A DNA stretch of 46,987 bases from assembly GCA_947041225.1 (NCBI GenBank), contig CAMRDM010000004.1, positions 1-46,987 on the forward strand, in the 5' to 3' direction. The notes under the pieces are model-generated. The model was not told where the DNA came from. It made no database searches and worked only from the letters and a program-made list of their open reading frames with translations. This stretch comes from an uncultured Deferribacteraceae bacterium (GTDB lineage: Bacteria > Chrysiogenota > Deferribacteres > Deferribacterales > Mucispirillaceae). The position numbers and the translations under genes are program-made. Shown here one piece after another: positions 2,627 to 41,133 of the stretch (position 1 is the first letter of the stretch; each line of letters starts with the position of its first letter).

Positions 2627-3397
2627 ATGAGCGGAAAAATAATTGCAGTAGTTAATCAAAAGGGTGGCGTAGGTAAAACTACTACATCAATCAACCTATC
2701 TTCATCGCTAGCAATAGCTGATGCAAAGGTATTACTGATTGATTTTGATCCACAAGCGAACGCTACAAGTGGACTTGGAATTTTTGCAGAATCGTTTGAC
2801 AAAACTATATACGAAGTTTTAATTGATGATATAGATCCTAAAAGTGCTATCATCAAAACTGAAATAGATGGATTAGATCTTATCCCTGCAACAATTGATC
2901 TATCGGCATCTGAGATAGAATTAATCAATACTATGTCTAGGGAACAAAAATTAAAAAAATCTCTGGCAAAAATTAAAGATGAGTACGATATTATATTAAT
3001 AGACTGTCCTCCATCGTTAGGATTACTAACTATAAACGCATTAACTGCAGCAAATTCTGTTATAATACCTTTACAATGTGAGTATTATGCAATGGAAGGT
3101 TTAGGGAAACTATTAAACACTATCAATCTTATAAAAGAGAACTTAAATAAAGATTTAGAGGTAGAAGGTGTACTTCTTACTATGTATGATAAAAGAAATA
3201 ATTTATCTAAAGATGTGTACGATCAAGTAAAAGAACATATGCCCGATCAACTGTTTAACACAATTATCCCTAGAGCTGTCGCATTGAGTGAAGCACCTAG
3301 CCACGGTATGCCTATCATAACATATCAGACAAAATCTAAAGGTGCTGAAGTTTATATCGATCTTGCAAAAGAGATATTAGGAAGGCAAAAAACATGA
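2627..3397 (+). CDS. parA: Chromosome partitioning ATPase ParA/Soj
   Basis: Deviant Walker A KGGVGKTTTSINLSSSLA; DFDPQANATSGLG; DCPPSLGLLTINAL. Confidence 0.95.
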   Translation: MSGKIIAVVNQKGGVGKTTTSINLSSSLAIADAKVLLIDFDPQANATSGLGIFAESFDKTIYEVLIDDIDPKSAIIKTEIDGLDLIPATIDLSASEIELINTMSREQKLKKSLAKIKDEYDIILIDCPPSLGLLTINALTAANSVIIPLQCEYYAMEGLGKLLNTINLIKENLNKDLEVEGVLLTMYDKRNNLSKDVYDQVKEHMPDQLFNTIIPRAVALSEAPSHGMPIITYQTKSKGAEVYIDLAKEILGRQKT

Positions 3398-4338
3398 AAA
3401 AACAACGCTTAGGTAGAGGATTAAATCTTCTTATACCTCAAGGAAATCAAACATCTGATGGTAACAATGATAGCGATATCAACGATAATAACAGTAATGA
3501 TGATAACATTCAAAATAATGGTACTGTTAGAGCTAATACATTATTAGAGATACCGTTAACAGATATTGTCCCTAACGATCAACAACCTAGAACAGTTTTT
3601 GATGATGAACTTATATCTGAACTTGCAAAATCTATTCTTGAAAAAGGTGTTATTCAGCCTATCGTTGTAACTAAAACAGATAGTTCTGATAAATATATGA
3701 TAATCGAAGGGGAAAGACGTTGGAGAGCATCAGGACTCGCTGGTAAAACAACTATCCCTGCAATCTTTAGAAAAGTTGATACAGAAGTTGAAAGGTTAGA
3801 ACTTGCATTAATCACAAATGCTCAAAGAGAAGATCTAAATCCTATCGAGCTTGCAAAAGCATATAAAAAATTAATAGATGAATTTAATTATCGTCAAGAA
3901 GATCTTGGAAAAATAATGGGTAGAAGTAGATCTGCTATAACAAACAGATTAAGACTTTTAAACCTACCACAAGATATTCTTCAAGCGATAGAAGATAAAG
4001 TGATTACAGAAGGACACGGTAGAGCTTTGTTGACTATAACTGATCCTGAACGTACACTAGAGTTATATAGAGAGATCGTTGACAAAGATTTAACTGTTAG
4101 GGATATTGAGAAGCTAGTTAACAAAATTAATAAAAGTATAGATGATGGAGTTAATACAGACGTTGCATCACCCGAACCTATAGATCCTCATGTTGGTGCA
4201 TTAGCAGAAGAGTTTGAGAATTTTTTCTCATCTAAAGTTATAATAAAGGATAAGAAAGGTTCTGGAACAATTGAAATTAAGTATAGATCACACGATGATT
4301 TAGATAGAATTATTAAAAAGGTTAGAGGAGAAATATGA
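3394..4338 (+). CDS. parB: Chromosome partitioning protein ParB/Spo0J
   Basis: GERRWRASGLAGKTTIPAI, NAQREDLNPIELAKAYKKL and HTH region; 4-nt ATGA overlap with parA; Asn/Asp-rich N-terminal linker. Confidence 0.95.
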   Translation: MKKQRLGRGLNLLIPQGNQTSDGNNDSDINDNNSNDDNIQNNGTVRANTLLEIPLTDIVPNDQQPRTVFDDELISELAKSILEKGVIQPIVVTKTDSSDKYMIIEGERRWRASGLAGKTTIPAIFRKVDTEVERLELALITNAQREDLNPIELAKAYKKLIDEFNYRQEDLGKIMGRSRSAITNRLRLLNLPQDILQAIEDKVITEGHGRALLTITDPERTLELYREIVDKDLTVRDIEKLVNKINKSIDDGVNTDVASPEPIDPHVGALAEEFENFFSSKVIIKDKKGSGTIEIKYRSHDDLDRIIKKVRGEI

Positions 4339-4766: not shown

Positions 4767-5531
4767 ATGTCAAAGCGTAAACCGTTCATAGCAGGAAACT
4801 GGAAGATGAATTTAGATAAACTAACTGCTAAAAAGTTAGTTGAAGAGTTAGCGAACGCTAATATCGATTATAAAAAAGTAGATGTGCTTGTTGCTCCATC
4901 TGCAATACTTATTCAACCAGCTATTTGTAGTTTATCGAAGATTAAAAATTCGATAATTGTAGCAGCACAAAATATTTCAGATGTTGAGAATGGTGCATTT
5001 ACTGGTGAAACTTCAGCAGCTATGGTTGCAGCAAGTGGAGCTAAATACACACTTATCGGACACTCTGAACGTAGACAACTTTATTCTGATACAGATCAGT
5101 TAATTAATCAAAAAGTGAAAAAAGCTTTAGAACATAATTTAAATGTGATACTATGTGTCGGTGAAACTTTATGGGATAGAGAAGCTTCAGCTGCTGTTGA
5201 AACTGTTTTAGCTCAAGTTGGTAAAGGTTTAAAGGATATTAAGTCGTTATCTAAAATAGTTTTAGCTTATGAGCCTGTCTGGGCGATAGGTACTGGTGTT
5301 ACAGCTTCACCTAAAGATGCTCAAAATATGCATAAAGCTATAAGAGAGTATGTTGCTAAGATTAGGGGTAAAGCTGCGGCTGATAAATTACGTATACTGT
5401 ATGGTGGCTCAGTTACTCCAAAGAATGCAAAAGAGTTACTATCTCAGAAAGATATCGATGGTGCATTAGTAGGTGGTGCTTCATTAAAAAGTGAAGATTT
5501 TCTCAAGATAATAAATTTTGATAAAAAATAA
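4767..5531 (+). CDS. tpiA: Triosephosphate isomerase
   Basis: AGNWKMN, IGHSERR, AYEPVWAIGTG, YGGSVTPKN motifs. Confidence 0.97.
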   Translation: MSKRKPFIAGNWKMNLDKLTAKKLVEELANANIDYKKVDVLVAPSAILIQPAICSLSKIKNSIIVAAQNISDVENGAFTGETSAAMVAASGAKYTLIGHSERRQLYSDTDQLINQKVKKALEHNLNVILCVGETLWDREASAAVETVLAQVGKGLKDIKSLSKIVLAYEPVWAIGTGVTASPKDAQNMHKAIREYVAKIRGKAAADKLRILYGGSVTPKNAKELLSQKDIDGALVGGASLKSEDFLKIINFDKK

Positions 5532-5554
5532 TATGAATTCGAGGGTTTGAAAAA

Positions 5555-5926
5555 ATGTATAATGTTATTTTAGGGTTACATATATTCGTTTCTATTCTAT
5601 TGATTATAGTTGTGTTACTACAAAATAGTAAAGGATCGGATTTAGGTTCAGCGTTAGGTGGAGGTTCAGGAGAGATGTTTGGTCCTAAAGCACCAGCAAA
5701 TATAATGAACAGAATAACTACGGTTATTGCTGCTACATTTCTTGTTCTATCGTTAACTTTAGCGGTTATATCAAGCAATAGTAATAAATCACTTTTAAGA
5801 GATGCAAGAACATTACCTTCTGCGACTACTGAAGAGACTATGCCAATCATTCCAAATGCTGGAGCAAAAACAGGTGGCGCTTCTCTTGGACATGATGAGT
5901 CTATACATTTAGAAGAGAATAAGTAA
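5555..5926 (+). CDS. secG: Preprotein translocase subunit SecG
   Basis: LLQNSKGSDLGSALGGGSGEMFGPKAPANIMNRITTVIAATFLVLSL. Confidence 0.9.
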   Translation: MYNVILGLHIFVSILLIIVVLLQNSKGSDLGSALGGGSGEMFGPKAPANIMNRITTVIAATFLVLSLTLAVISSNSNKSLLRDARTLPSATTEETMPIIPNAGAKTGGASLGHDESIHLEENK

Positions 5927-13169: not shown

Positions 13170-14084
13170 ATGAGTAATCTTGTTGAAAGAGCATTAAACG
13201 GAGAAGTAATTGCTGCCGCTAGATTAATGCGATTATCAGATGATAGACGTGAAGGCTATCAAGTATTTATGAAAGAGATATGGAAAAAAACAGGACACGC
13301 TCATATTATAGGCATAACAGGAGCACCAGGATCAGGGAAATCAACTTTAACCGATCAACTTATAACAAAGTTTCGTGCAGCTGGTAAAACAGTTGGAGTT
13401 GTTGCAATAGATCCTACAAGTCCATTTACAGGTGGAGCTATCTTAGGTGATAGAATACGCATGGCAACACACTCACTTGATGAAGGTGTTTTCATTAGAA
13501 GCGTTGGTACAAGAGGAAATCTTGGTGGACTATCGGTTTCAACTATGGATATCGTTGCTATCATGGACGCTATGGGTAAAGATATAGTTATAATTGAAAC
13601 AGTTGGTGTTGGACAAGATGAAGTAGAGATCGCTATGGTTGCTGATACTTGTATCGTCGTAACCGTTCCAGGACTAGGAGATGATATACAAGCGATTAAA
13701 GCAGGTATATTTGAAATAGCAGATATATTTGTTGTTAATAAATCAGATAGAGATGGTGCTGAAAGAACAAGTAACGATCTTAAAATGATGCTAGAAATTA
13801 CTCCTAAACGTGATGAATGGACCGTTGAAGTTCTAAAAACTATGGCAGAAAAAGGCGAAGGTGTTGATGAACTAATTGAAAGAATTAGCATTCACGAAGA
13901 TTTCTTTAAAGAGAATAAATTAAAAAGAAGAAAACTAAATGAAAGATTAGTACATGTTGCATACGGTGCTGTAAAAGAGAAATTAGTTAATGATATTTTT
14001 CCACCAGATAAAATAAAGGCACTTATTGAAGATGGTAACGATCCATATACTACTGTAGAAATCTTATGGAATAATATTAAGTGA
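13170..14084 (+). CDS. meaB: Methylmalonyl-CoA mutase-associated GTPase MeaB (ArgK family)
   Basis: GITGAPGSGKSTLTDQL, AIDPTSPFTGGAILGDRIRM, ETVGVGQDEVEIA, VVNKSDRDGA. Confidence 0.95.
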   Translation: MSNLVERALNGEVIAAARLMRLSDDRREGYQVFMKEIWKKTGHAHIIGITGAPGSGKSTLTDQLITKFRAAGKTVGVVAIDPTSPFTGGAILGDRIRMATHSLDEGVFIRSVGTRGNLGGLSVSTMDIVAIMDAMGKDIVIIETVGVGQDEVEIAMVADTCIVVTVPGLGDDIQAIKAGIFEIADIFVVNKSDRDGAERTSNDLKMMLEITPKRDEWTVEVLKTMAEKGEGVDELIERISIHEDFFKENKLKRRKLNERLVHVAYGAVKEKLVNDIFPPDKIKALIEDGNDPYTTVEILWNNIK

Positions 14085-15157
14085 GTAAAAGTAATTTAGT
14101 ATCTGTTATACTGCCCACTTATAATGGTGAGTTGTTTATAGCAGATACGTTACAATCTGTACTAGATCAAACATATAAAAACCTAGAAGTGATTATTATT
14201 GATGATGCGTCAACTGATAGAACTGTTGAGATCATTAGATCATTTAACGATGATAGAATTAAATTATATGTGAATGAAACAAATCTAGGTATCGGAGAAA
14301 ATAGTAACAAAGCGTTATCCTTAGCAACGGGAGAGTTTATTATGATGCAAGATCATGATGATATATCTTCTCCATCTAGGGCAGAACTACAGTATAAATG
14401 TTTAGTAGATAATCCTGATGTTACAGGGGTTGCTTTACATGTAAAAAGTTTTAAGGATACGCCACCTGATGATATCTATAAAACATTAGATAATTATCAT
14501 ATAGATAAAAATTCTAAAGAGTTAAAAGCGTTAGGTTTATATCACTTCCTTACTCATCCGACACTTTTTTACAGAAGCTCTATCTTAGATAAGTTAGATA
14601 ACTATTATAGTAGTAAATTTACTATAGCAGGTGATTTATATTTTATTGAGCAGTTGAATAGTGTAGGTGCAAGTTGGATACTATTAAAAGATGATCTTCT
14701 TGCCTATAGAGTTCATCAGAGTATGACAACGGCAAAATATAAAAAACCTCAAATATATAGAGAAGTTTTAGAGATATCACTGCTTCTTGTAAGGCGACAT
14801 TTTCCAAATATATCAGATACCGAAGCTCTCATGCACGCAAAGGTAATGGCACGACGAGAACTGTTAGAGATAGATAACATAAGTTTGATTAATCATTTTA
14901 AAAGAATTCTTGCATTAAATATAAGTAACGATTTCTGTGATGACACAACATTAAAAAAAGAAACAGAGATGAAGTTTAGAACAGCATCTATCTTATCAAA
15001 TATATATTCACCTCTTAAAGCTTATAAAGTATATAAATCAATTGATGAGTTAAAACCGTATAGAGTTTCATTTTGGAAATTTATTAATGAGTATCAGAAA
15101 AGATTTTTTACAAATTTAACATGGCTAACATATAAAAAGAGAAGAAATACAGAGTAA
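14081..15157 (+). CDS. Glycosyltransferase family 2 (array copy 1)
   Basis: SVILPTYNGELFIADTLQSVLDQTYKNLEVIIIDDASTDRT; GEFIMMQDHDDISSP; GTG start overlaps the meaB stop. Confidence 0.92.
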   Translation: MSKSNLVSVILPTYNGELFIADTLQSVLDQTYKNLEVIIIDDASTDRTVEIIRSFNDDRIKLYVNETNLGIGENSNKALSLATGEFIMMQDHDDISSPSRAELQYKCLVDNPDVTGVALHVKSFKDTPPDDIYKTLDNYHIDKNSKELKALGLYHFLTHPTLFYRSSILDKLDNYYSSKFTIAGDLYFIEQLNSVGASWILLKDDLLAYRVHQSMTTAKYKKPQIYREVLEISLLLVRRHFPNISDTEALMHAKVMARRELLEIDNISLINHFKRILALNISNDFCDDTTLKKETEMKFRTASILSNIYSPLKAYKVYKSIDELKPYRVSFWKFINEYQKRFFTNLTWLTYKKRRNTE

Positions 15158-15239
15158 ATTATATCTGTTATTATTTCAATAATTATTAAAACATTATATC
15201 TTAGATAGTAAATAATAGTAATAAGGATCAACGTATAAA

Positions 15240-16322
15240 ATGAGTACAATTAGCACCAATTCTCCTTTAGTATCAGTAATTCTGACTACTTATAATGGTG
15301 AGAAATATATAGCTGAAACGTTGCAGTCTGTATTTAATCAAACTTATACAAATCTTGAGATAATTATCGTAGATGATTTATCAACTGATAAGACGGTAGA
15401 TATTATTAAGTCGTTCAATGATGATAGAATTAAATTATATATTAATGATAAAAATCTAGGTATAGGTGATAACACAAATAAAGCGTTATCGTTATCCACT
15501 GGCGAGTTTATTATGATGCAAGATCATGATGATATATCTTCTCCATCACGAGCTGAACTACAACTTAAATGTTTGCAAGATTATCCAGATGTTACTGGTG
15601 TAACTTTACACGCAAGACGTTTTAAAGATAATCCTCCAAGTGCGATCTATAATAAAGTAGAGACATATCATATAGATAAAACTGCTCATGAGTTTAATGC
15701 GATCGGTGTATATAGTTATCCAGGACACCAAACACTTTTCTATAGAAGATCACTGCTAGATAAATTAGATAGCTATTACAGCAATAAGTTTATAGTCGAT
15801 GGCGACATTTATTTTATGAGTAAGCTAAACGTTGCAGGTGCAAGTTGGATACTGTTAAAAGATGATCTTCTTGCATATAGAATTCATGATACGAATACAA
15901 CTGTAAAGTTTAGAAATCCACAAATTTATAAAGATAAGTTAGAGATATTAACGATCTCAATAAAAGGATATTTAAAAGATATATCAGATAGTGATGCGCT
16001 TATCCATGCAAAGTTGATGCTGAAACAAGAGTTACTTAAAATAGATAATGAAAGTTTAATCAATCATTTTAAAAAAATCTTAGCATTAAATATTAATAAC
16101 GATTTCTGTGATGATAATATTTTAAAAAAAGAAACTGTTGCTAGATTTAAAACAGCATCAATTTTAGCAAATATATATTCACCTTTTAAAGCATATAAAG
16201 TATACACATCTATTGATGAGTTAAAACCGTATACCGTATCTTTTTCAAAATTTTTGAGTGAGTATCAGAAAAGATTTTTAAGAAATTTAAGTTGGATTTT
16301 ATTTAAAAATAAAGATATATAA
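15240..16322 (+). CDS. Glycosyltransferase family 2 (array copy 2)
   Basis: SVILTTYNGEKYIAETLQSVFNQTYTNLEIIIVDDLSTDKT; GEFIMMQDHDDISSP; near full-length similarity to copies 1 and 4. Confidence 0.92.
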   Translation: MSTISTNSPLVSVILTTYNGEKYIAETLQSVFNQTYTNLEIIIVDDLSTDKTVDIIKSFNDDRIKLYINDKNLGIGDNTNKALSLSTGEFIMMQDHDDISSPSRAELQLKCLQDYPDVTGVTLHARRFKDNPPSAIYNKVETYHIDKTAHEFNAIGVYSYPGHQTLFYRRSLLDKLDSYYSNKFIVDGDIYFMSKLNVAGASWILLKDDLLAYRIHDTNTTVKFRNPQIYKDKLEILTISIKGYLKDISDSDALIHAKLMLKQELLKIDNESLINHFKKILALNINNDFCDDNILKKETVARFKTASILANIYSPFKAYKVYTSIDELKPYTVSFSKFLSEYQKRFLRNLSWILFKNKDI

Positions 16323-16458
16323 TATATTTATATATGTTATCACTTGATTACTGTCGATAATGATATATGATAATCAATATAAAATATTTATCACATAATA
16401 AATATTAGTTACACTACGCTTTGATTAGCAGATAAATAGAAAGGAATAAAATAATAGT

Positions 16459-17586
16459 ATGAGTAAAGATAGTTTAACTTCTCCATTAATATCGGTTATT
16501 CTCCCAACATATAACGGTGAGAAATATATAGCTGAAACGTTAGAGTCTGTATTAAATCAAACTCACAAAAACCTTGAGATAATTATTACTGATGATTGTT
16601 CAAAAGATAAAACTGTTGAAATAATTAAATCTTATAATGATGCGAGAATAAAGTTATACGAAAATGAGAACAATCTAGGTATCGCAAATAACACAAATAA
16701 AGCGTTATCACTTGCAACTGGAGAGTTTATAATGATGCAAGATCACGATGATATATCTTCTCCGTATAGAGCTGAAGGAATGTTAAAAGTGCTTCTGGAG
16801 AATAAAGATCTTATAGGATTAAACTCACGAATGTTTTATTTTCAAACAGATGTTAGTAGAGAAGAGATAGATAAAAACCTTAGCGTATCAGAACCTATTA
16901 TAGATCTTAATGAGAAACAGTTAGCTGTTGGAAATCTTTTCGATGTAAACTTTTTTCATCCAACAATAATGTATAGATCTTCTATATTGCAATCATTAGA
17001 TACGCCGTATACGCCTGAATTAAAAGTTACAGCAGACAGTATTTTATTTGCAAGATTTATGGGACTTAAAGCAAAGTGGTATGTATTAAAGAATAACTAT
17101 GTAGCTTATAGACTTCATCCAACTAATACATCTAAAGTTGATATAAATGTAAACTATAGAGAAGATATTATTATGATTGAACATTTAGTAAAAGCGACAC
17201 TACCATTTGTTACTAAAGAAGATATAGCTAATCATATTATTGGAAGAAAACACGACAAGGTATTATCATATATCGGTAAAACAAATAAATGGATTGTTGA
17301 CTACTACAAAAGAATTATCCAATATAACATAGATAATGATGTGTTAGATCATGAAATGCTTTTAAAAACATTAGCATTAAATTTGAAATATTTTACTAAT
17401 TTATCTAATGTTTTAAGACCTTTTAACTCATTAAAAGTTTATCGTTCTATTGATGAGTTAAAGCCATATTTAGAGAGCAACACGTCTGTTTTATATGATT
17501 GGCAAAAAAGATTTTTCCGTGCGATAAATTGGTATTTTGTAGGCGATAGAAGATTATTAAGAACTAAAGAAATTAGTAAAAAATAA
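16459..17586 (+). CDS. Glycosyltransferase family 2 (array copy 3, divergent C-terminal half)
   Basis: Same N-terminal catalytic domain (SVILPTYNGEKYIAETLESVLNQTHKNLEIIITDDCSKDKT; MMQDHDDISSP), then a different middle and C-terminal region. Confidence 0.92.
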   Translation: MSKDSLTSPLISVILPTYNGEKYIAETLESVLNQTHKNLEIIITDDCSKDKTVEIIKSYNDARIKLYENENNLGIANNTNKALSLATGEFIMMQDHDDISSPYRAEGMLKVLLENKDLIGLNSRMFYFQTDVSREEIDKNLSVSEPIIDLNEKQLAVGNLFDVNFFHPTIMYRSSILQSLDTPYTPELKVTADSILFARFMGLKAKWYVLKNNYVAYRLHPTNTSKVDINVNYREDIIMIEHLVKATLPFVTKEDIANHIIGRKHDKVLSYIGKTNKWIVDYYKRIIQYNIDNDVLDHEMLLKTLALNLKYFTNLSNVLRPFNSLKVYRSIDELKPYLESNTSVLYDWQKRFFRAINWYFVGDRRLLRTKEISKK

Positions 17587-17587
17587 T

Positions 17588-18679
17588 ATGAATAAGCAAA
17601 CAGATAACCAACATTTAGTATCAGTTATTATGCCAACTTATAACGGTGAAAAATATATAGCTGAAACTTTGGAGTCTATATTAAATCAAACGTATAGAGA
17701 TCTTGAGATAATTATTGTTGATGATAACTCAACTGATAAAACTGTTGAAATAATTAAATCTTATAACGATGAAAGAATAAAATTATATTTCAATGAAAAA
17801 AATCTTGGTATCGGCGATAATACGAATAAAGCGTTATCGCTAGCAACTGGCGAATTTATTATGATGCAAGATCACGATGATATATCTTCACATTATAGAG
17901 TAGAGCTACAGCTTCAATGTTTACTCGATCACCCAGATGTTACAGGTGTTGGTTTACATGCAGAATCGTTTTTTAACGATATCCCTCCACGTGAGATATA
18001 TAGTAAATTGGATACTTACCATATAGATAAAACTGATAGAGAATTTAAACCGTATGAGTTATATAGTTATCCTGCACATCAGACACTTTTCTATAGACGA
18101 TCGATACTAGAGAAATTAGATATTTATTACAGTAATCATTTCACAGTAGCAGGAGATCTTTACTTTATGAATAAATTAAATATAGCAGGTGCAAGATGGA
18201 TACTGTTAAAAGATCGTCTACTTGGCTATAGAGTTCATCAAAATATGACATCAAAAAAGCATAAGAGACGTCAGATATATAAAGAGCTTTTAGAGATATC
18301 ATTAATATTTATTAAAAACCTTTTTCCAGATATATCAGATCGAGATGCACTTATGCATGCAAAATTGATGCAAAGACAAGAACTGCTTAAAATAGATAAC
18401 GTTAGTTTAGTTAACCACTTTAATAGAATATTATCATTAAATGCAAATAACGATTACTGTGATGATATAGCTTTAAAGAAAGAAACAGTGACTAAATTTC
18501 AAACAGCAACTATATTAGCAAATATATATTCACCTTTTAAAGCATATAAAGTATATAGATCAATTGATGAATTGAAACCGTATACAGTATCATTTGGAAA
18601 GTTTTTAAATGAATATCAGAAAAGATTTTTCAGAAATTTAGGTTGGATAATATTAGGAAATGAAAGAATAAAAGATTAG
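17588..18679 (+). CDS. Glycosyltransferase family 2 (array copy 4)
   Basis: SVIMPTYNGEKYIAETLESILNQTYRDLEIIIVDDNSTDKT; MMQDHDDISS; YSPFKAYKVYRSIDELKPYTVSF tail shared with copies 1 and 2. Confidence 0.92.
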   Translation: MNKQTDNQHLVSVIMPTYNGEKYIAETLESILNQTYRDLEIIIVDDNSTDKTVEIIKSYNDERIKLYFNEKNLGIGDNTNKALSLATGEFIMMQDHDDISSHYRVELQLQCLLDHPDVTGVGLHAESFFNDIPPREIYSKLDTYHIDKTDREFKPYELYSYPAHQTLFYRRSILEKLDIYYSNHFTVAGDLYFMNKLNIAGARWILLKDRLLGYRVHQNMTSKKHKRRQIYKELLEISLIFIKNLFPDISDRDALMHAKLMQRQELLKIDNVSLVNHFNRILSLNANNDYCDDIALKKETVTKFQTATILANIYSPFKAYKVYRSIDELKPYTVSFGKFLNEYQKRFFRNLGWIILGNERIKD

Positions 18680-35497: not shown

Positions 35498-37366
35498 TTA
35501 TACTTTTTTAAACTTCTCTATTGCTATCTCTAACATAGATATAGCGTTATGTGTCATCCCTGGAATTCGTAAAGCTTGTCCTAGATTTTCAGGCGATATC
35601 CTCTTTAACTTCTCAACCTGTTCTAATCTTAATCCAGATACTGAACCGTAATCTATATTTTGTGGAATTCGTATAAACTCTAACTTATTAGATTTAGCAA
35701 TTTCTTGCTCCTCTTTCTTGATGTATCCTTCATAAAATATCTCTATCCAAACCTGTTCTTGAAGCTTCGTTGGTATCTGTTCAATAAGGTTCATCTCTTC
35801 CAACATATCGTAACTAGCCTCTGGACGTTTTAGAAAATCATATGCTGTAATACTCTCATTAAGTATTATATTATATTTAGATATTATATCAACTATATTC
35901 TTATCTGAGATCCTTATCTTTATACCCTTTAACTTCTCAATTGTATTACTCACTACAACACAATCTTCCATAAACCGATCATATCTTTTATCTGTTATTA
36001 ACCCTAAATCTTTACCGTACTCAATCAATCTAGCCTCTGCATTATCCTCTCTTAATCGCATACGATGTTCAGCTCTTGATGAAAATATTCTATATGGCTC
36101 ATCTACACCTTTAGTTGTTAAATCATCTGTCATCACACCTATATAACTTTCATCTCTATTAAGTATAAACGGCTCTTTACCCTCTATCGATAATGTAGCA
36201 TTAACCGATGCCATAAAACCTTGTACTGCTGCTTCTTCATATCCTGATGTACCGTTTATCTGTCCTGCAAAATATAATCCATCTATTAATTTCGTCTCAT
36301 AACTTTTTTTCAATATAGTCGGCTGAAACGCTATATACTCTATTGCGTACGCTGGACGGATAAACTCTGCTCGCTCTAATCCTACTATCGTTCTATACGC
36401 TTCAAGTTGCGCATCTATAGGTAGAGATGATGAGAAACCATTGATATATATCTCATTACTTCCTATACCTTCTTCCTCTAATACAATTAAATGACGCTCT
36501 CTATCTGGAAATTTCGATACTTTGTCCTCCATTGATGGACAGTATCTAGGGCCTAAAGCTTTATCTTTATTATTAAAGTATAACGATCTATATGTGTTCT
36601 CTCTAACAACTTGATGTGTTCTATCTGATGTATATGTTATAAAACAATCTATCTGATCATCACCTAATATACCTGTCTCAAATGAAAATCCTCTTCTTGT
36701 TGTTTCTTTCTTATATGCTTCTACTTTATCAAAATCTATACTACGCTTATCAACTCTCGCAGGTGTTCCTGTCTTTAATCTTATAGGCTCAAAACCTAAC
36801 GATGTTAATGAGCTTACTAAATGTGTTGATGATATATCATTCATCCTACCACCCTCATAACTCTTATCTCCAACAAATATCTTACCGTTCAAAAATGTAC
36901 CCGTTGTAACGATAACCTTACTTGCATGATACTCTTCACCCGATACAGCTCTTACACCATATACAACTTTATCCTTAACCAATATATCCGATACAACAGC
37001 TTGCTTTACAGATAGATTATCTGCAGTAAATAAACTCTTCTTCATTCGCTCTGAATATTTACGTTTATCTGCTTGTGCTCTTGAACTTCTTGCAGCTACA
37101 CCTTTACTCTCGTTTAATAATTGAAACTGTATAAATGTTGCATCTATATTCCGTCCCATTTCGCCGCCTAAAGCATCTAAGTCTTTAACTAGAGAACCTT
37201 TAGCTAATCCACCTATCGCAGGGTTACAGCTCATATATGCTATCTTATCAAGCGATATTGTTATAAGCATCGTGCTAAACCCACGTCTAGCTGATGCTAA
37301 TGCTGCCTCGCAACCTGCATGTCCAGCACCTACAACAATAACATCATATATATCATTCTTTAACAT
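35498..37366 (-). CDS. mnmG: tRNA uridine-5-carboxymethylaminomethyl modification protein MnmG (paralog 2)
   Basis: GAGHAGCEAALASARRG, CNPAIGGLAKGSLVKDLDALGGEMG, RLKTGTPAR, GPRYCPSMEDK, GTSGYEEAAVQG. Confidence 0.96.
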   Translation of the reverse strand: MLKNDIYDVIVVGAGHAGCEAALASARRGFSTMLITISLDKIAYMSCNPAIGGLAKGSLVKDLDALGGEMGRNIDATFIQFQLLNESKGVAARSSRAQADKRKYSERMKKSLFTADNLSVKQAVVSDILVKDKVVYGVRAVSGEEYHASKVIVTTGTFLNGKIFVGDKSYEGGRMNDISSTHLVSSLTSLGFEPIRLKTGTPARVDKRSIDFDKVEAYKKETTRRGFSFETGILGDDQIDCFITYTSDRTHQVVRENTYRSLYFNNKDKALGPRYCPSMEDKVSKFPDRERHLIVLEEEGIGSNEIYINGFSSSLPIDAQLEAYRTIVGLERAEFIRPAYAIEYIAFQPTILKKSYETKLIDGLYFAGQINGTSGYEEAAVQGFMASVNATLSIEGKEPFILNRDESYIGVMTDDLTTKGVDEPYRIFSSRAEHRMRLREDNAEARLIEYGKDLGLITDKRYDRFMEDCVVVSNTIEKLKGIKIRISDKNIVDIISKYNIILNESITAYDFLKRPEASYDMLEEMNLIEQIPTKLQEQVWIEIFYEGYIKKEEQEIAKSNKLEFIRIPQNIDYGSVSGLRLEQVEKLKRISPENLGQALRIPGMTHNAISMLEIAIEKFKKV

Positions 37367-37531: not shown

Positions 37532-39361
37532 TTATCTATCTTTTTCAATCTTCTCTATCTTAGATATCTCTATCGCTATAACCGATATAGCCGCTGGAGA
37601 AATCCCCGGAATACCTCTTATCTCTTTTAAAGTTTTAGGTTTTAATAAAGCGATCTTCTCTGCATACTCTAACCTAAGTCCTGGGATAGATTTATAACTT
37701 ATACTATCAGGTACCAATATACCATCGTATATATCAGCTTTCTCTACCTCTTTCTTCTCTTTATCTATATAGCCTTTATACTTAATCTCTACCTCTAACT
37801 GATCGATCAACTTTTCAGATAGATTTCCCTCTCCTATACCACTCTCTTTAATCATATCCCTATATAACACTTCTGGTCTTTTTAATAGATCATGATACGA
37901 TATGTTTCTATCTTTATCTTTTAATTTATTAAGCCTAGCTATCTCTAAATCAATTAACTCTCTATCATTTAAAAATCTATCAAACCTTTCTTTACCTATC
38001 AATCCTAATTTATATCCGTACTGTAACAATCTAGCTTCAGCTCTATCTTCTCTTAACAGTAACCTGTACTCTCCTCTTGAAGTAAACATTCTATATGGCT
38101 CATCAATACCTTTACTCATTATATCATCACCTAATACACCGATATAACTTTCATCTCTACCTAAGATTAACGGTTCTTTACTATCAATAGATAGAACTGC
38201 ATTAACTCCCGCCATAAACCCTTGTACACCTGCCTCTTCATATCCTGATGTTCCATTTAACTGTCCTGCAAGATATAAACCTTTAAGTTTCTTAGACTCA
38301 TATGAGTAATGTAAATCTTTCGGATCGTAAACATTATACTCTATTGCATAAGCCGGTCTCGTAAACACAGCATTCTCTAACCCTTTAATTGATCTATAAG
38401 CAGCAACTTGAACATCATACGGAAGAGATGTTGACATTCCATTAATATGACACTCAAACATATCTAAACTTTCAGGTTCGATAACTATATTATGTGATGT
38501 TTTCTCTGGAAAGTTTTTGATCTTATCTTCAATAGATGGACAATATCTAGGTCCTTTTACAGCGATCTCGCCACTATATAACTGTGATGTTTTTATATTA
38601 TCAGCAACTATTCTACAAGTTTCATCATTAGTATATGTTAGGTAACAATCTATATTCTTTAAACCGTTCTTAACACTATCTGGAGAGAATGTTATATCTC
38701 CACTATCAGAAGATAGAACTTCTAATCCACTTATATCTATAGAGTCAAATCGTATCCTTGCAGGCGTATCTGTTTTCATCTTAAAATGATTTAAACCTAA
38801 TTTACTTAATGACTCTCCTAATGCAACACTAGCAGGTTCATACATTCTTCCAGCTGACATCTTCATACTACCGATATATATATGCCCATCTATAAATGTT
38901 CCTGCTGTAACCACTATTTTCTTACAGTAATACACTTCACCTGATGCAACACTTACTGACTCTACTTCACCATTCTTAGCATTTATATCTGTAACGATCC
39001 CTTGTTTTAAGTCTAGTTTTGGTGTATCAAATATCGTTGTTAGCATTCTATCTTTATACAGATATTTATCTGCTTGAGCTCTTGTTGCTCTTACAGCCAC
39101 ACCTTTACTTCTATTTAATATTCTAAACTGTATCCCTGTTGCATCTATATTTCTTCCCATTTCGCCACCTAAGGCGTCCATATCTTTAACTAGATTACCT
39201 TTACCTATTCCACCTATCGCTGGATTACACGGCATTAACGCCACGTTCTCGATAGATATAGTTAGTAGTAAGGTTTCTGCACCCATGCGTGCTGATGCTA
39301 ACGCTGCTTCACAACCTGCATGTCCTGCACCTATCACTATTACATCATACTTCTTAAACAT
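37532..39361 (-). CDS. mnmG: MnmG paralog 1
   Basis: GAGHAGCEAALASARMG, CNPAIGGIGKGNLVKDMDALGGEMG, GPRYCPSIEDK, GTSGYEEAGVQG; altered KMKTDTPAR where MnmG2 has RLKTGTPAR. Confidence 0.95.
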   Translation of the reverse strand: MFKKYDVIVIGAGHAGCEAALASARMGAETLLLTISIENVALMPCNPAIGGIGKGNLVKDMDALGGEMGRNIDATGIQFRILNRSKGVAVRATRAQADKYLYKDRMLTTIFDTPKLDLKQGIVTDINAKNGEVESVSVASGEVYYCKKIVVTAGTFIDGHIYIGSMKMSAGRMYEPASVALGESLSKLGLNHFKMKTDTPARIRFDSIDISGLEVLSSDSGDITFSPDSVKNGLKNIDCYLTYTNDETCRIVADNIKTSQLYSGEIAVKGPRYCPSIEDKIKNFPEKTSHNIVIEPESLDMFECHINGMSTSLPYDVQVAAYRSIKGLENAVFTRPAYAIEYNVYDPKDLHYSYESKKLKGLYLAGQLNGTSGYEEAGVQGFMAGVNAVLSIDSKEPLILGRDESYIGVLGDDIMSKGIDEPYRMFTSRGEYRLLLREDRAEARLLQYGYKLGLIGKERFDRFLNDRELIDLEIARLNKLKDKDRNISYHDLLKRPEVLYRDMIKESGIGEGNLSEKLIDQLEVEIKYKGYIDKEKKEVEKADIYDGILVPDSISYKSIPGLRLEYAEKIALLKPKTLKEIRGIPGISPAAISVIAIEISKIEKIEKDR

Positions 39362-39396
39362 CTTAGAACCTCTATTTAAACAAACTACATATACAA

Positions 39397-39412
39397 TGTT
39401 TCACGTGAAACA
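39397..39412. promoter_or_regulatory. parS: parS centromere site 1
   Basis: TGTTTCACGTGAAACA, perfect 16-bp consensus palindrome. Confidence 0.95.
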
Positions 39413-39500
39413 TAACAACCTAACTGATAACGGATAAGAACCAATACTGATTAACCACTTTCTGTCACTCACAACTTTAACAGATTAACAAACGCTCCAA

Positions 39501-39516
39501 TGTTTCACGTGAAACA
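39501..39516. promoter_or_regulatory. parS: parS centromere site 2
   Basis: TGTTTCACGTGAAACA, perfect 16-bp consensus palindrome. Confidence 0.95.
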
Positions 39517-39606
39517 TAACCATCTCAAAACAATCAAACTAACACAGATCAAGCCGTGTCAACAAATGTTTCCAATCAATATATTTATACCAACCGATCT
39601 ACACAA

Positions 39607-39622
39607 TGTTTCACGTGAAACA
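39607..39622. promoter_or_regulatory. parS: parS centromere site 3
   Basis: TGTTTCACGTGAAACA, perfect 16-bp consensus palindrome. Confidence 0.95.
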
Positions 39623-39709
39623 TAACAATATAGCCGACAACCGATAAGGACAAATACTGCTTAACTCTTCTCTACCAATCACAACTTTAACCTATTAACA
39701 AACATATAA

Positions 39710-39725
39710 TGTTTCACGTGAAACA
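39710..39725. promoter_or_regulatory. parS: parS centromere site 4
   Basis: TGTTTCACGTGAAACA, perfect 16-bp consensus palindrome, starting 14 bp from the mnmE stop. Confidence 0.95.
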
Positions 39726-39738
39726 TTTAACATAAAAT

Positions 39739-41133
39739 CTACTTGCCTATACAGAACTTATTAAAGATAATAGAGAGAACATCTTCAGTATAACTCTCTC
39801 CAGTGATCTCCTCTATATTCCTAATAGACTCATTTAAATCAAATATAATCATATCTTCAGGAAAGTTACTACCAATATTCTTAACAACCGATTGAAGCGA
39901 ACTCTTTACAATATCTAATAACATAGCGTGTCTTTCTGACACAATACCGATAGAATTAACTTTGATATCCTTACTGCCTGCAACTATATCCTTAATCAAT
40001 ACCAATAATCTATCAACGCCATCTCCACTCTTAGATGAGATAACTATATCGAACTTAGAGATATCTATACTATGCTCTAAATCACTCTTATTACCAACCT
40101 TTATAACCTTACTGCCGTTAGCAGAGTTAATAATCATATCAAGGTTCTTATCATCAAGAATAGAGAGATCGCCATCATTTATATCAAACAGTATCAAAAC
40201 AATATCAGCTTTACTAACAACCTCTAAAGATTTCGATATACCTATGCTCTCAATCTCATCAGTTGATTCTCTGATCCCTGCTGTATCGGTTACCGTTACT
40301 GGTATCCCTGATATCAGAAATCTCTCACTAATAAAATCTCTTGTAGTGCCTGCAACAGATGAAACTATCGCTCTATTACTATCTAACAGTTTATTAAGCA
40401 GAGATGATTTACCTACATTCGGCTTACCAACAATAACTAAATTAACATCGTTACTAACAGATCGTAAAGATTTATACGACTCTAATAGTTCATCAGTTTG
40501 AAGTAATAATGGATTAACAATTGCCAACAACCTTGCATAAATACTAGAAATATCTGTATCTTCAGCAAAATCTATATCAGCCTCAAGTATAGCTTTACAG
40601 TTAAGTAACTCAGATTTAAATCTATCAAACAACATACCTACAGATCCATTCATCTGCTCATAAGCATATCTTAAAGATATATCTGAGTCCGATGCGATAA
40701 ACTCCTGTATAGCTTCCGCTTCACTCAACGATATCTTATCATTTAAAAATGCTCGCATAGTGAACTCACCATTCTTTGCATCTCTAAATCCTAGATCGTA
40801 AAACGATCTAAGTGCTGATGATATAAGGATAGGATTACCATGAAATGATATCTCAACAACATCTTCACCTGTATATGAATAAGGTGCTTTAAAATATGTT
40901 ACTAAAACATCATCACAAAACTGATCATATAACGATATAAACTTAGCAAAATACACCTTATTTGGCTCTATATCAACGATTTCACTGCCTTTCCTATCTT
41001 GGATAAGATTAAACGTCTTAATCGCCTCTACGCCCGAAATACGCACTACTATCACAGGTGAAGTTAGTACAACTGTTATCGGTGCAACGATTGTTTCTTT
41101 ATTATAACTATTTCTCTTAATATCTTTACTCAT
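39739..41133 (-). CDS. mnmE: tRNA modification GTPase MnmE
   Basis: VGKPNVGKSSLLNKLLDSNRAIVSSVAGTTRD, DTAGIRES, C-terminal CIGK. Confidence 0.95.
   Translation of the reverse strand: MSKDIKRNSYNKETIVAPITVVLTSPVIVVRISGVEAIKTFNLIQDRKGSEIVDIEPNKVYFAKFISLYDQFCDDVLVTYFKAPYSYTGEDVVEISFHGNPILISSALRSFYDLGFRDAKNGEFTMRAFLNDKISLSEAEAIQEFIASDSDISLRYAYEQMNGSVGMLFDRFKSELLNCKAILEADIDFAEDTDISSIYARLLAIVNPLLLQTDELLESYKSLRSVSNDVNLVIVGKPNVGKSSLLNKLLDSNRAIVSSVAGTTRDFISERFLISGIPVTVTDTAGIRESTDEIESIGISKSLEVVSKADIVLILFDINDGDLSILDDKNLDMIINSANGSKVIKVGNKSDLEHSIDISKFDIVISSKSGDGVDRLLVLIKDIVAGSKDIKVNSIGIVSERHAMLLDIVKSSLQSVVKNIGSNFPEDMIIFDLNESIRNIEEITGESYTEDVLSIIFNKFCIGK

Follow-up and report, generated by a model that had tools for sequence, protein, structure and literature searches.

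A compact tandem array of parS sites as the probable chromosomal centromere of an uncultured Deferribacteraceae bacterium

Four exact parS sites stand within one 329-bp stretch of the chromosome of an uncultured Deferribacteraceae bacterium, and we consider it highly likely that this array is the organism's sole chromosomal centromere and ParB-loading zone, that it grew from one ancestral site, and that the length of its repeating unit is mainly inherited. The reading builds on the sequences themselves and their conservation, on gene context, on a parS-type ParB, on a change from a single site to an array among relatives, and on the duplication of one unit. The components are those of a standard chromosomal ParABS system and the layout is a single compact tandem array. 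The array is real, very probably functional and mechanistically ordinary.

The array and its genetic setting

The window, which is the whole contig of 46,987 nucleotides, carries parA and parB in its left part and, in its right part, rsmG, two tandem mnmG genes, the array, mnmE, folD, gyrA and a gyrB truncated by the contig end (Table 1). A preliminary description had recognized four perfect palindromes between mnmG and mnmE. All four are exact copies of the 16-mer TGTTTCACGTGAAACA, at offsets of 104, 106 and 103 bp, in agreement with the parS consensus palindrome TGTTNCACGTGAAACA, and profile matches over cut-off on either side (TIGR00136 and TIGR00450) bear out the identity of the two flanking genes. 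Shuffling the window gave 0.24 parS matches at up to three mismatches, and four matches were reached in no shuffle. The flank CAATGTTTCACGTGAAACATAAC is common to sites 1-3, as had also been noted, and site 4 has TAA...TTT instead. Across the 17 sites of the four species in the genus, an A precedes the 16-mer (position -1) in every case and a T follows it (position +1) in 16; the background frequencies of these bases are 0.41 and 0.29. We propose that the ParB target is probably to be read as the 18-mer ATGTTTCACGTGAAACAT rather than as a 16-bp palindrome.

Table 1. Positions of the array, its neighbours and other features of the window
Feature	Positions	Strand	Remarks
ParA (Soj) ATPase	2627..3397	+	overlaps parB start
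ParB (Spo0J) CTPase clamp, predicted parS reader	3394..4338	+	TIGR00180 (parB_part), 178.6 bits, over cut-off
Run of four glycosyltransferase ORFs	14081..18679	+	family-2-like
Other mnmG (gidA) of the tandem pair	35498..37366	-	over MnmG cut-off
mnmG copy 1 (gidA), left neighbour of array	37532..39361	-	TIGR00136, 702 bits, over cut-off
113-nt direct repeat, first copy	39381..39493		contains parS 1
parS site 1	39397..39412	no strand	exact TGTTTCACGTGAAACA
Spacer 1	39413..39500		88 bp; homologous to spacer 3
parS site 2	39501..39516	no strand	exact TGTTTCACGTGAAACA
Spacer 2	39517..39606		90 bp; weakly alignable to corresponding G001 spacer, z = 3.2
Terminator-like hairpin in spacer 2	39538..39563	-	mnmE-mnmG strand
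113-nt direct repeat, second copy	39591..39703		contains parS 3
parS site 3	39607..39622	no strand	exact TGTTTCACGTGAAACA
Spacer 3	39623..39709		87 bp; weakly alignable to last G001 spacer, z = 3.2
parS site 4	39710..39725	no strand	exact TGTTTCACGTGAAACA
mnmE (trmE), right neighbour of array	39739..41133	-	TIGR00450, 318 bits, over cut-off

A scan of the whole genome (2.19 Mb, in a 162-contig draft that is 96% complete), which had been proposed as a check when the array was first described, found the four array sites as the only ones at zero or one mismatch, and a single 2-mismatch site on another contig. Because the resident ParABS has no other parS at zero or one mismatch, a centromere role must rest on the array. 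The ParA ORF of this system has a MVNQKGGVGKTT-type start and a KGGVGKTT motif, and its matches in the ParA/MinD superfamily each lie under their own equivalog cut-off. ParB has its best solved-structure matches among ParB/Spo0J/Noc proteins, and its alignment contains the GERRWR motif together with the parS-type R...G specificity residues (R173/G201-type), which are conserved in ParB orthologues (PMC7383237); it is the one protein of the genome with a parB_part match far over cut-off. A full-length SMC and a ScpA are encoded in the genome as well. The parAB pair lies among housekeeping genes, 35 kb from the array on the same contig. In three further species of the genus (G001, G002 and G003), dnaA and the array share a contig and are separated by about 10.5 kb; in the window's own genome dnaA is on another contig of the draft, and the distance to the origin is read from these relatives.

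ParB proteins of the genus are 314 aa long, against 280-297 in relatives, and have a longer Asn/Asp-rich linker (residues ~17-48) after an N-terminal LGRGL peptide, a linker that coincides with the array. As a cause of the array, an altered ParB was rejected: the motifs are canonical and only the N-terminal linker is longer. Second, more distant ParB-family proteins occur in two of the four species (G001:C1:35102 and G003:C10:46785; L225 and L226), perhaps from plasmids or integrated elements. A plasmid search for DNA resembling the array region returned mnmG-derived matches only. Elsewhere in the window, the four glycosyltransferase ORFs, recognized from their translations, are related to one another and form an apparent local gene amplification.

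The array does not look like an oriC or DnaA-box cluster: DnaA boxes (TTATCCACA-like) at up to one mismatch are absent from 39361-39740, and their whole-window total is near chance. A main role in ParB-dependent regulation of the mnmE-mnmG operon, in place of a centromere role, is also very unlikely for the array. It does sit between two co-directional genes, and ParB spreading affects nearby genes in some bacteria (PMC7022226). However, the genome offers the resident ParABS no other parS, the location is where the order conserves its ori-proximal parS, and promoter-like matches in the array region are at chance level.

Origin of the array within the genus

One unit of the array has been duplicated. 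Spacers 1 and 3 are alignable, as had been reported, with 68 of 89 alignment columns identical (z = 11.3), and the two copies of the 113-nt direct repeat are 80% identical and 210 bp apart. Between spacer 2 and either of the others, alignment detects no similarity. The earlier suggestion of growth by segmental duplication thus stands in part: the array is multiplied at least partly in this way, as seen directly in spacers 1 and 3 only, and spacer 2 has no such counterpart. Spacer 2 contains a terminator-like hairpin (one found against 0.2 expected), which might attenuate read-through from mnmE into mnmG.

Arrays of 3-5 parS sites lie in the same mnmE-mnmG spacer in all four species of the genus. 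The intervals are 104/106/103 bp in the window, 102/105/110/283 bp in G001, 102/105/111/50 bp in G002, where one site carries a mismatch, and 109/113 bp in G003. Eleven of these 13 intervals fall at 102-113 bp and the remaining two are 50 and 283 bp; spacer lengths in the relatives, whose comparison the preliminary description had put forward, are therefore neither random nor fixed. Beyond the genus, the sister genera have two parS sites that flank mnmG copy 1 at a separation of ~1.9-2.7 kb, and a single parS occupies the mnmE-mnmG spacer in 17 genomes from four other families; in several genomes rsmG contains a further parS, ~2.3 kb away. Because these 17 genomes keep one parS in the spacer, we reason that a single site became an array. 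Under the simplest history, the ancestor of the order had one parS between mnmE and mnmG, this site was multiplied in the present genus, and a second ancestral site, found in rsmG in several other families and on the far side of mnmG in the sister genera, was lost here. The tandem mnmG genes of the window are ~50% identical to each other and both score over the MnmG cut-off; the pair is present also in both sister genera, and the other families of the order have, where the locus was read, a single mnmG adjoining rsmG or mnmE.

Two spacers are orthologous between G001 and G002 (67/89 and 66/86 identical), with 42 substitutions and no gaps; in the window, spacers 2 and 3 are their weakly matching counterparts (z about 3). 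On this evidence the array seems older than the divergence of these three species. The sites have hardly changed: parS is exact in 16 of 17 sites in the four species, while the spacers diverge to ~75% identity or past alignability. The three sites that bound the G001/G002 orthologous spacers are unchanged over 48 bases, for which the chance at ~76% spacer identity is ~2 in a million. Unchanged site bases amid diverged spacers indicate that the parS sites are under strong purifying selection. These relatives also bear on the idea that the array is a product of chance or an artefact of the draft metagenome assembly, which might have collapsed or multiplied repeats. The locus is repetitive and the draft is in 162 contigs, but 3-5-site arrays with diverged spacers stand at the same locus in three further separate genomes, and the chance expectation is negligible; we find either explanation barely credible.

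Length of the repeating unit

In the window alone, intervals of 103-106 bp correspond to 9.8-10.1 turns, and the preliminary description proposed that such spacing could place ParB nucleation on one DNA face or specify a ParB loading structure. Neither proposal is supported. Genus intervals of 102-113 bp span 9.7-10.8 turns at 10.5 bp/turn (R = 0.28, n = 9), those of 109-111 bp are about half a turn off, and G001, G002 and G003 thereby contradict a common face. ParB that has bound parS forms a closed CTP clamp, which slides off and accumulates, and more parS sites give a higher loading rate (PMC8299390); because the clamps leave parS and slide, a fixed DNA face is not expected. Among the matches listed, tight parS pairs elsewhere show a weak ~10.5-11 bp periodicity (uncorrected p ~0.05 when de-duplicated and smaller in the redundant set), which would favour helical phasing, but this periodicity fits best at a value other than 10.5 bp, changes phase from one length class to another and disappears at 133-300 bp. 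That sites are set ~ten turns apart for ParB to nucleate on one face is highly improbable.

A scan of GTDB species genomes for exact parS pairs 72-132 bp apart returned at least 120 stretches outside the genus. Among the matches listed, 8 of 61 clusters fall at 102-107 bp after homologous loci are merged, which is no significant excess (p = 0.25), and a universal ~105-bp preference is rejected on this count. The raw excess in that range (25/129, among the matches listed) is due to related loci and to a few tandem arrays that contribute similar intervals several times over. Among the at least 120 tight-pair loci listed (L064-L183), no two parS sites at up to one mismatch lie less than 33 bp apart, which would fit a steric minimum for ParB. 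At least one of parA, parB, rsmG, mnmG, mnmE, gyrA and gyrB is carried by 89 of the at least 120 listed stretches, which makes tight parS clusters a recurrent feature of that neighbourhood.

Some of these loci are regular tandem arrays, and in unrelated bacteria such arrays often lie beside gyrA or in the mnmG-rsmG-parAB region. Four of them (L093, L112, L135 and L176) are drawn from uncultured Bacilli, Lachnospiraceae and Oscillospiraceae. L093, an uncultured Bacilli contig, has what amounts to a centromere satellite, ten parS at exactly 55-bp period just beyond gyrA (5384-5894); L135, also from uncultured Bacilli, has seven sites mostly 106-109 bp apart beside gyrA; the sites of L112 are mostly 56-58 bp apart and those of L176 (Oscillospiraceae) mostly 106-110 bp; other tandem arrays have intervals of 40-57 or about 95 bp. 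The spacers of L093, L135 and L176 are mutually homologous (65-95% identical in L135 and L176), so the regular spacing of these arrays is a matter of duplication. Like the window, the arrays of these three groups have at least three near-perfect tandem parS sites, some beside gyrA or mnmG-rsmG-parA; unlike it, they belong to unrelated lineages, include other unit lengths and, where spacers are clearly homologous (L093, L135 and L176), look younger. In the open-licence PMC literature we found no paper describing these tandem arrays, no account of their recurrence in Firmicutes, and no arrays of the window's kind described in its own phylum.

Could the ~105-bp interval itself be functional, such that ParB-parS complexes must sit 102-113 bp apart to bridge, to loop or to load SMC? 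Eleven of 13 intervals in four species lie in that range, regular 106-110 bp arrays recur in L135 (Bacilli) and L176 (Oscillospiraceae), and the G001/G002 spacers took 42 substitutions with no indel, whereas gaps are missing from only 2 of 13 length-matched control intergenic windows that had 12 substitutions or more, a weak comparison in which the windows are few and overlapping and which was made after seeing the data. A constraint on spacer length would, on this comparison, be suggestive only. Against a functional interval stand the 50 and 283 bp exceptions inside the genus, the duplication behind the regularity of L135 and L176, the tandem arrays with other unit lengths, the de-duplicated clusters without an excess, and a loading model that responds little to spacings between 40 and 200 bp (below). 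We consider such a function unlikely. A related idea, that length and not sequence is selected, with adjacent ParB-parS complexes forming a repeating nucleoprotein unit of preferred length and no fixed face, strikes us as quite unlikely. The near-constant interval length may instead reflect duplication history, although duplication history alone sits uneasily with 11 of 13 intervals at 102-113 bp when most spacers are unalignable within species. We propose that the ~105-bp unit is mainly an inherited repeat length and not a helical-face device.

ParB loading and comparison with other centromeres

We re-ran a published one-dimensional exclusion (sliding-clamp) model on the geometry of the array with Caulobacter parameters (PMC10387095), as a plausibility argument whose parameters may not be those of this organism. 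In the model, four sites at 104/106/103 bp hold 1.5-3.2 times as much ParB as a single site and gather it in one peak, with 37 against 25 dimers in the central kb under slow diffusion and high loading. Spacings of 40-200 bp load nearly equally; the ~105-bp spacing is accordingly rejected as a kinetic loading optimum, and the loading structure suggested earlier is not supported. Under slow diffusion and high loading the compact array holds 75 dimers against 91 for two sites 2 kb apart, whereas in the other three settings it stands above them; higher loading alone may therefore not explain why the array is retained. The model outcome suggests a loading zone that is both focused and redundant, with a mainly inherited unit length.

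We hypothesize that ParB dimers would bind each 16-bp palindrome and close around the DNA with CTP, and that the closed clamps would slide off parS and gather on neighbouring DNA. ParA would pull apart the DNA so coated, which in the relatives lies about 10.5 kb from dnaA, and SMC-ScpA would be recruited to it. Multiplication of the sites, together with loss of the second ancestral site, would have focused loading in one spot of 0.3-0.6 kb, and the chief benefit of having several sites may be redundancy and a denser complex.

The system resembles the chromosomal ParABS of Bacillus subtilis, Caulobacter crescentus, Pseudomonas aeruginosa and Myxococcus xanthus in its consensus palindrome, its ParB with a CTPase motif, its ParA upstream of and overlapping parB, its ori-proximal position and the SMC-ScpA of its genome. 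In those systems, however, the sites are mostly separate, whereas here all lie in 329 bp, 35 kb from parAB. The preferred parS cluster of B. subtilis spans ~60 kb (PMC8357415), and a review-level statement describes separated sites as typical of chromosomes and single clusters as typical of plasmids, with separated sites proposed to help SMC loading (PMC10387095). Caulobacter has five parS sites, two of them 42 bp apart (PMC10387095). The view that parS sites are usually scattered over kilobases, from which the preliminary description started, holds for many model chromosomes, but tight pairs are frequent too, as in this Caulobacter pair and the at least 120 stretches of our scan.

With sopC, the F-plasmid parS, which consists of twelve 43-bp tandem repeats with ten 16-bp inverted repeats (PMC6238139), the array shares a compact tandem set of ParB sites, a role (predicted for the array) as the replicon's only centromere, and a regular spacing from repeated units. 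Unlike sopC, it is chromosomal, differs in palindrome, copy number and unit length (~105 vs 43 bp), has only partly homologous spacers and does not adjoin parAB. A sopC-type centromere was rejected: 43-bp repeats are absent, the unit is 103-106 bp, the parS is of chromosomal type and parAB is 35 kb away. The array is a compact, plasmid-like variant of a chromosomal centromere.

This chromosome thus appears to rely on one plasmid-like cluster as its centromere. Within a single order, its relatives document how one or two sites gave way to an array, with ParB family and gene neighbourhood unchanged, and the contrast between the array and these relatives amounts to a natural experiment on whether the number and separation of parS sites matter. 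The recurrence of tandem arrays in unrelated Firmicutes suggests that tandem duplication is a recurrent route by which bacterial centromeres expand and turn over.
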